A stretch of DNA of 64,000 nucleotides, taken from positions 310,001 to 374,000 of the forward strand of contig JAOAUC010000055.1 of assembly GCA_030157785.1 (NCBI GenBank), in the 5' to 3' direction. The notes under the pieces were generated by a model, which worked only from the letters and a program-made list of their open reading frames with translations, searched no databases and had not been told where the DNA came from. The first letter of the stretch is position 1. Each line of letters begins with the position of its first letter. Positions 42,522 to 44,910 of this stretch are shown piece after piece. Source of the DNA: Zoogloea oleivorans (lineage in GTDB: Bacteria; Pseudomonadota; Gammaproteobacteria; Burkholderiales; Rhodocyclaceae). The position numbers and the translations under genes are program-made.

Positions 42522-43139
42522 ATGAAAAATATTCCACGCACCCAATGCATCGACGCCACGCCGGAGACCGTGCCGTCACCCGACCGACGGGAAGCCCTGA
42601 AGGCCACGTCCGCCCTGCTCATTTGCGCCGGACTGGGATTCGGCAAGCAAGCCTTTGCCGATGACGAGGCCAATTCCCACCCGAAGGTCGGCGATCAATT
42701 GGCCCGGGCCGACGGCGAAGGCCGCCCGGCGGCCATGCATTCCGCCGAAATCCTGCCGAATGCCAAGCCTGTACCGGCCTTTCCCCTCGATCCGGCCAGC
42801 GGCGCGATGCGGGACGGCAGCCGCCTCAACAAGGTGATCCTGATCCGCGTCGACCCGCAGGAACTGAGCCCCGACGTGCAGCCCTACGCGGCCGGCGGCG
42901 TGCTCGCCTATTCCTCGGTGTGCACGCACCAGGGCTGCGAAATCTCCGAGTGGGTCCCCAAGGACCAGACCCTCATGTGCTACTGCCACTTCTCCAAGTT
43001 CTCGCCCGGACGTGCTGGCGAAGTGATGGCCGGCCCCGCCCCGCGCACTTTGCCGCTCCTGCCCCTGAAGGAGGTGGACGGCGTGCTCGTCGTCGCCGGC
43101 CCCTTCACGGCCCGGCCGGGCGTCGCCAAATCCACCTGA
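42522..43139 (+). CDS. Tat-exported Rieske [2Fe-2S] protein
   Basis: CTHQGC...CYCHFSKF cluster ligands (CxH/CxxH); N-terminal PDRREALKATSALLICAGLGF twin-arginine type signal. Confidence 0.88.
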   Translation: MKNIPRTQCIDATPETVPSPDRREALKATSALLICAGLGFGKQAFADDEANSHPKVGDQLARADGEGRPAAMHSAEILPNAKPVPAFPLDPASGAMRDGSRLNKVILIRVDPQELSPDVQPYAAGGVLAYSSVCTHQGCEISEWVPKDQTLMCYCHFSKFSPGRAGEVMAGPAPRTLPLLPLKEVDGVLVVAGPFTARPGVAKST

Positions 43140-43191
43140 TTTCCTGTCGCACCCGTCGTACCCACACCAATAAAGAAGGAGACATCCAGAC

Positions 43192-44910
43192 ATGAACACC
43201 CGACTCAAGGCGCTCTGCGCCGGGCTGGCCTTGCTGCCAGCCATCGCCACCGCCGCTCTGCCGGCCTACAGCCCCGTCACCGACGCCCGCCTGACCAAGC
43301 CCGAGGCCGGCAACTGGCTGATGTACCGCGGCAACTATGAAGGCTGGGGCTACAGCGCCCTCAAGCAGATCAACAACCAGAACGTCGGCAAGCTGGTGCC
43401 GGCCTGGTCTTACGCCACTGGAATGACCGAAGGCCACCAGGCCCCGCCCATCGTCAATGACGGCTACATGTACGTGTCCACGCCCAACAACCAGGTCATC
43501 GCCCTGGAAGCCAGCACCGGCAAGGAACTGTGGCGCTACAAGAAGACCATCCCCGACGAGCTCATGCAGCTCCACCCCACCAACCGGGGTGTCGCCCTGT
43601 ACGGCGACAAGCTCTACCTCGCCACCACCGACGCTTTCCTGGTAGCGCTCGATGCCGCCACCGGCAAGGAGCTGTGGAAGGTCGCCGTGGCCGACTGGAA
43701 GAAGGGCTACTACATGACCCTCGCCCCGCTGGCCGCCAAGGGGAAGATCATGGTCGGCTCGTCGGGTGGAGAGCTGGGCATCCGCGGCTTCATCGCCGCC
43801 TTCGACGCCGAGACCGGCAAGGAAGCCTGGCGCACTTACACCATCGCCGGCCCCGGCGAGGCGGGCAGCGAAACCTGGCCCGGAGAAACCTATAAAACCG
43901 GCGGCGGCTCGGTGTGGATCACCGGCACCTACGACTCGCAGACCAACCTGGCCTTCTGGGGCGTCGGCAACGCCGGCCCGTGGATGCCCGACACCCGCCC
44001 CGGCGACAACCTCTACGCCAACTCCACCATCGCCCTCGACGTGGACACCGGCAAGCTCAAGGGCCACCACCAGTACCACTGGAACGACGCCTGGGACTGG
44101 GACGAAGTCTCCGCCCCGCTGCTCATCGACCTCGACTACAAGGGCAAGAAGATCAAGTCGCTGGTGCATGCCGGCCGCAACGGCTACCTGTGGCTGCTCG
44201 AACGCACCAAGGACAAGGTCAACTACGTCGATGCCTGGCCTTACGTGACGCAAAACGTGTTCACCAGCCTCGACCCCAAGACCGGCCGCCCCACCTACGA
44301 TGCCAAGCGCATCCCCGGCACCGGCAAGACCACCAACTTCTGTCCGTCCCTGTGGGGCGGCAAGGACTGGCCGCCCGAAGCCTACAACCCGCAGACCGGC
44401 CTGCTCTACATCCCGGCCAACAACAACCTGTGTTCCGAACTCACCGGCGAGCCCGTCAAGTACAAGGCCGGCGGCCTCTACATCGGCGTCGCCCTCGACA
44501 ACATCCTCACCAACGTGCGCATGACCGAAAAGTCGCGCCAGCACATCGGTGAAGTGCAGGCCTGGGACCTGAAGACCGGCAAGCAGGTGTGGACCCACAC
44601 CTACCCCGAGATGAACTGGGGCCCGCTGATGACCACCGCCGGCAACCTGGTGTTTGGCGGCGGCACCAACGACCGCATGTTCCGCGCCCTCGACGCCCGG
44701 AGCGGCAAGGTGCTGTGGGAAACCCCCACCCCCTCCGGCGTCACTGGCGTGCCCTCGACCTTCGAGGTGAACGGCGAGCAATACGTCGCCGTGCAGTCCG
44801 GCTGGGGCGTCGATGCCCAGCGCATGCAGGGCGCCTTTGACGCCGTCCTCGAGCACAAGACCGTCGTTCCGCAGGGCGGCACGATCCACGTGTTCAAGCT
44901 CCAGAAGTAG
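43192..44910 (+). CDS. PQQ-dependent alcohol dehydrogenase-family quinoprotein (no heme domain)
   Basis: 572 aa; signal peptide, W-motif blades (NNQVIALEASTGKELWRYK, TGKELWKV), GNAGPWMPDTRPGDNLYANSTIALDVDTG, WDWDEV; no CxxCH. Confidence 0.92.
   Translation: MNTRLKALCAGLALLPAIATAALPAYSPVTDARLTKPEAGNWLMYRGNYEGWGYSALKQINNQNVGKLVPAWSYATGMTEGHQAPPIVNDGYMYVSTPNNQVIALEASTGKELWRYKKTIPDELMQLHPTNRGVALYGDKLYLATTDAFLVALDAATGKELWKVAVADWKKGYYMTLAPLAAKGKIMVGSSGGELGIRGFIAAFDAETGKEAWRTYTIAGPGEAGSETWPGETYKTGGGSVWITGTYDSQTNLAFWGVGNAGPWMPDTRPGDNLYANSTIALDVDTGKLKGHHQYHWNDAWDWDEVSAPLLIDLDYKGKKIKSLVHAGRNGYLWLLERTKDKVNYVDAWPYVTQNVFTSLDPKTGRPTYDAKRIPGTGKTTNFCPSLWGGKDWPPEAYNPQTGLLYIPANNNLCSELTGEPVKYKAGGLYIGVALDNILTNVRMTEKSRQHIGEVQAWDLKTGKQVWTHTYPEMNWGPLMTTAGNLVFGGGTNDRMFRALDARSGKVLWETPTPSGVTGVPSTFEVNGEQYVAVQSGWGVDAQRMQGAFDAVLEHKTVVPQGGTIHVFKLQK

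Follow-up and report, generated by a model that had tools for sequence, protein, structure and literature searches.

A Rieske protein as the putative electron acceptor of a clade of haem-free PQQ-dependent alcohol dehydrogenases

The Rieske and dehydrogenase genes in Zoogloea

The window (i.e. the whole analysed stretch of 64,000 nucleotides from Zoogloea oleivorans) harbours an operon in which the gene of a Rieske protein precedes, by a gap of 52 bp, that of a haem-free PQQ-dependent alcohol dehydrogenase (98% identity to Z. oleivorans), with three further operon members downstream (Table 1). The initial annotation had placed the Rieske gene just upstream of the dehydrogenase, described a Tat-type signal and complete cluster ligands in the former, and reported no CxxCH in the latter and no cytochrome c gene in the operon. 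All of this was borne out: both open reading frames were recovered at their positions, the twin arginines and all ligands were found (export being predicted by motif), no haem motif was detected in the dehydrogenase gene, and the operon contains no cytochrome c gene, the nearest PF00034 matches on the contig lying more than 60 kb away. The product of the gene that follows the dehydrogenase is a member of the operon in loci of the Zoogloea/Methyloversatilis type.

The divergently encoded sigma-54 activator is likely the regulator of this operon. A promoter-like box was located 40 bases ahead of the Rieske start codon; since exact and one-mismatch matches to its consensus, taken together, are not clearly more numerous in the window than chance would give, its support rests on its position and on the presence of the activator gene. 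Directly after the operon (47938-51684) we noted a set of purine catabolism genes, named by sequence reading only, with products of xanthine/urate permease type and resembling OHCU decarboxylase, hydroxyisourate hydrolase and membrane urate oxidase (the last with a C-terminal CxxCH).

Table 1. Coordinates of the features discussed (window positions, unless a locus is named)
Feature	Position	Strand	Remarks
GAF-AAA-Fis sigma-54 activator, divergent	40145..42094	-	PF00158, PF01590, PF02954
Sigma-54 -24/-12 promoter-like box TGGCATACGCCTTGC	42467..42481	+	exact match to TGGCAYRNNNNTTGC
Rieske [2Fe-2S] protein, 205 aa	42522..43139	+	PF00355; predicted soluble, periplasmic after Tat export
Cluster ligands and disulfide Cys (C134, H136, C139, C153, C155, H156)	42921..42989	+	motif in 97/97 full-length orthologs
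Haem-free PQQ-dependent alcohol dehydrogenase (methanol/ethanol family), 572 aa	43192..44910	+	TIGR03075
H128 codon	43573..43575	+	invariant His in loop replacing vicinal Cys-Cys; 101/101 clade
Catalytic-type Asp302 and Asp304 codons (WDWD)	44095..44103	+	Asp304 at extra-Asp position of lanthanide enzymes
Predicted outer-membrane transporter-like protein	44957..45808	+	no Pfam match
DUF1097 membrane protein, operon member	45840..46307	+	PF06496
AldA-like aldehyde dehydrogenase, operon member	46345..47784	+	NF007497/PRK10090, 738 bits (cut-off 500)
Secreted protein, ~150 aa, of order-reversed loci	L222:4498-4938; L224:4634-5095; L229:4489-4935; L230:4177-4587; L178 after 9541

In profile searches the Rieske protein passed PF00355 (36.5 bits, cut-off 20.3), and it met the fold and CxH...CxCH 2Fe-2S ligand criteria of this family (C134-T-H136-x-x-C139...C153-Y-C155-H156). 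Its N-terminus carries the twin arginines R22 R23, then an AFA cleavage-like site, and the twin-arginine motif recurs in 96 of 97 orthologs (motif only, no signal predictor); the protein is predicted, from sequence, to be exported via Tat and to be soluble, apparently cleaved and not membrane-anchored. The cluster ligands, both extra cysteines and the cluster serine are conserved in 98-100% of the orthologs, with S158 kept and the position of the bc1 tyrosine mostly occupied by phenylalanine (F160). With such a combination of residues the potential of the cluster (which was not computed) is expected somewhat below bc1 values and above that of PQQ.

Among solved structures the AlphaFold model (pLDDT 88) came closest to the Thermus Rieske protein 1NYK, at 40% identity and with a TM of 0.95 over the target. 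The Thermus-type cytochrome bc Rieske proteins are nearest in sequence and fold, including the second cysteine of each ligand loop; unlike these, the window protein is not encoded with cytochrome b/c1 and appears to lack a membrane anchor. Two identities were rejected: that of a bc1 Rieske subunit (TIGR01416, 27 bits against a cut-off of 97.4), the genome having its own bc1 operon petABC with another Rieske subunit, and membership of the AioB family (TIGR02694, 41.7 bits against 95.65), leaving with AioB a likeness of working only.

The dehydrogenase fulfilled the curated TIGR03075 criterion (582 bits, cut-off 480). With ExaA/PedE/PedH, XoxF and MxaF it shares the propeller family, the PQQ/metal ligand positions, the catalytic aspartate and a Sec-type signal; unlike them, it lacks the vicinal Cys-Cys and a dedicated cytochrome c gene, and has a Rieske gene instead. 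Its metal/PQQ ligand and catalytic residues (E194, N260, D302 and R329) were present in all 101 enzymes of the clade to which it belongs (see below). The sequence criterion for lanthanide-dependent enzymes (an aspartate two residues past the catalytic one) is met by D304, and an aspartate stands there in 96 of 101 clade members (alanine in L061, L062, L149, L150 and L160). As E. coli Gcd also has an aspartate at this position (WDMD), D304 leaves open whether the metal is a lanthanide or Ca. The AlphaFold model of the enzyme (pLDDT 76, alignment of 9 sequences) carries no argument here.

Pairing of the two genes across genomes

The association of the two genes was followed in several samples. 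An order survey of 250 genomes yielded nine further full-length Rieske orthologs besides that of the window genome, and all eight on long enough contigs were followed by the dehydrogenase (51-83% identity). In a phylum sample of 399 evenly spread genomes, the dehydrogenase clade (above 800 bits, next score 505) and the Rieske family (at most 1e-58, next about 1e-17) occurred in the same 13 genomes, neither was found alone, and the pair was adjacent in every one, while none of 17 loci of next-best PQQ dehydrogenases in this sample had a Rieske gene. We stress that the probability of such co-occurrence (1.2e-24) presumes independent genomes, which these are not: nine of the 13 belong to one genus, and the independent cases amount to about five. 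The correlation between Rieske and dehydrogenase distances is r 0.76, and permutations reached 0.10 at most.

Among 80 named dehydrogenase loci, 76 were immediately preceded by an intact Rieske gene in the same orientation (76/79 with enough upstream sequence). The remaining four comprised a contig end, a Rokubacteria MAG in which the gene is reduced to a broken piece (L138:4724-4945; decay or assembly error), and two loci (L132, L135), from Binatota and Acidobacteria, with no Rieske gene adjacent (only the neighbourhood was inspected). Plasmids of Azoarcus, Roseomonas, Paracoccus, Alteromonas and Deinococcus carry the two genes as annotated neighbours, and in Methylobacterium they likewise lie together; viral contigs, which were also searched, contained no relatives. 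An apparent fusion of the two proteins (G411, open frame of 817 aa) was dismissed, as it proved to be two genes in different frames.

Since these dehydrogenases form a single clade with one likely origin, the neighbourhood could be a frozen inheritance from one ancestor, devoid of functional meaning. We find this hardly tenable: the genes stay adjacent in several phyla, also on plasmids, where identity has fallen to about 45-50% and where the other neighbours have changed, and in Paracoccus, Alteromonas and L160 the gene order is reversed with the genes still adjacent, which likely reflects selection for togetherness and not mere inheritance. In order-reversed loci (Paracoccus, Alteromonas, G521) the Rieske gene is followed by that of a conserved secreted protein (Table 1); this had been considered as a hidden cytochrome c and was rejected, since it has no haem motif (CxxCH).

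The Rieske protein could also be the partner of another dehydrogenase acting in the same pathways, its link to the PQQ enzyme being merely a shared substrate. Another PQQ dehydrogenase is indeed encoded near four of the loci (L062, L119, L123 and L124) and a molybdopterin oxidoreductase at the Roseomonas locus, but such neighbours vary (even the aldehyde dehydrogenase is present at only 33 of 80 loci) and the Rieske gene is constant, so that we hold this explanation to be very improbable.

Clade hallmarks and the missing cytochrome

In the phylogenetic tree all the Rieske-linked dehydrogenases fall on one side of a single branch (support 100/100), at about 35-41% identity to the TIGR03075 family members sampled outside the clade. 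None of the 101 clade enzymes has the vicinal Cys-Cys found in 24 of 25 control PQQ alcohol dehydrogenases; in its place stands a loop of the L-H-P-T-N-R-G type that includes the invariant His128. The controls consisted of the next-best dehydrogenase matches of the same sample and the paralogs of the window genome, not of a full census of PQQ enzymes, and the vicinal Cys-Cys by PQQ is common but not universal in quinoproteins (the curated TIGR03075 model does not require it). A histidine in place of Cys-Cys also occurs in E. coli Gcd (FQH262VTCRG, an HxTxRGV loop), which differs from the window protein in being membrane-anchored (the window protein scored 208 bits on the Gcd-family model, cut-off 832). 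Gcd reduces ubiquinone and not cytochrome c; therefore, the change marks at best a non-cytochrome acceptor, and not a Rieske protein in particular.

Small (single-haem) cytochrome c genes were absent within 3 kb of all 83 clade loci, as opposed to 15 of 24 control PQQ dehydrogenases (neighbouring open reading frames were called by a simple in-house rule). Haem-containing frames occurred near 12 of the 83 loci, every one at least 358 aa long. A nearby dedicated cytochrome c is usual, not defining, for TIGR03075 enzymes. The window genome encodes PqqE for PQQ synthesis and five other PQQ alcohol dehydrogenases (35-38% identity to the window enzyme).

The electrons of PQQH2 might go directly to a general soluble cytochrome c whose gene lies elsewhere, with the Rieske protein acting downstream or as a branch (as a shuttle linking this cytochrome to a further acceptor), or aiding only in some conditions. 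The 37 cytochrome c domain matches elsewhere in the window genome, any of which could serve, lend this some substance, as do the two clade members without an adjacent Rieske gene. Such an arrangement nonetheless appears unlikely to us, given the strict adjacency and identical genomic distribution of the pair, and a disulfide that is gone throughout the clade and absent in just one of the other alcohol dehydrogenases sampled.

A PQQ dehydrogenase from a Deinococcus aetherius plasmid (L225:4649-6313), recovered as sister to the clade (support 98/95), adjoins a Rieske gene and retains the vicinal Cys-Cys. It counts against a Rieske acceptor, in that the disulfide is kept despite the Rieske neighbour; at the same time it possibly represents an evolutionary intermediate, and suggests that the Rieske partner was gained first and the disulfide lost later. 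We lean towards a scenario in which a widespread class of quinoprotein alcohol dehydrogenases with a single origin came to use a soluble Rieske protein in place of cytochrome c as its obligate immediate acceptor, starting from a Deinococcus-like Cys-Cys state with the Rieske partner already gained, before the histidine loop replaced the disulfide by PQQ.

A putative periplasmic module for alcohol oxidation

Soluble quinoprotein alcohol dehydrogenases are the textbook case of electron hand-over to a dedicated cytochrome c. The initial annotation had inferred that the Rieske protein takes the place of this cytochrome or relays to one, and its role as dedicated redox partner of the window enzyme gained support from the adjacency maintained through order reversal, the identical distribution in 399 genomes, the lack of small cytochrome c genes, the single clade and the replaced disulfide, electron transfer as such remaining an inference. 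We regard it as probable that the dehydrogenase passes its electrons directly to the Rieske protein, which relays them to a high-potential acceptor, the two proteins forming a periplasmic alcohol oxidation module. Direct transfer, its order, the downstream acceptor and the substrate are all deduced from genomic data, in the absence of binding or expression data.

The dehydrogenase would oxidize an alcohol to the aldehyde and store the two electrons as PQQH2, from which the Rieske cluster would accept them singly, in two steps, replacing the usual dedicated cytochrome c; the cluster may in turn deliver them to the cytochrome c pool, a bc1-side cytochrome or an oxidase. The analogy is with AioB, a Tat-exported Rieske protein that passes electrons from periplasmic arsenite oxidase to cytochrome c (PMC5574378), although there the partner is a molybdenum enzyme and here a PQQ dehydrogenase. 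In the window genome the AldA-like enzyme may next oxidize the aldehyde, and the occurrence of such enzymes at other loci hints at short-chain diols or alcohols as the (inferred) substrate.

The Rieske protein need not be the sole acceptor, and adjacency would also fit a maturation or regulatory role. A factor for maturation, protection or sensing, not carrying the electrons of the dehydrogenase, would be expected to sit beside it just as any dedicated partner; we deem this highly unlikely, because a non-redox role would not need the near-complete conservation of cluster ligands, extra cysteines and serine. The acceptor reading thus remains preferred, with the Deinococcus disulfide, the two loci without an adjacent Rieske gene and the abundant genomic cytochrome c domains counting against it.

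No published description of a Rieske/PQQ dehydrogenase pair was found in the open-access literature (subscription journals were outside the search). If correct, the proposal implies a new electron-transfer pairing, with an iron-sulfur protein as acceptor for a whole clade, provides a natural test for the role of the vicinal disulfide by PQQ, and allows many alcohol dehydrogenases (perhaps lanthanide-dependent) of Proteobacteria, Rokubacteria and Deinococcus to be annotated more precisely; bioelectrodes, too, could profit from an initial step without haem.

Mdh2 of Methyloversatilis, a single-subunit PQQ alcohol dehydrogenase of a related betaproteobacterium, resembles the window enzyme, but its gene is accompanied by those of a cytochrome of its own, Mdh2G, and of Mdh2J (PMC5023235). 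Identity of the two was excluded by this cytochrome, and the Rieske-linked dehydrogenase of the same species lies in another cluster (L078), apart from that of Mdh2. On plasmids of Thermus and Meiothermus (L226, L228), relatives of the Rieske protein were observed beside a TauE/SafE-type transporter gene and not beside a PQQ dehydrogenase.
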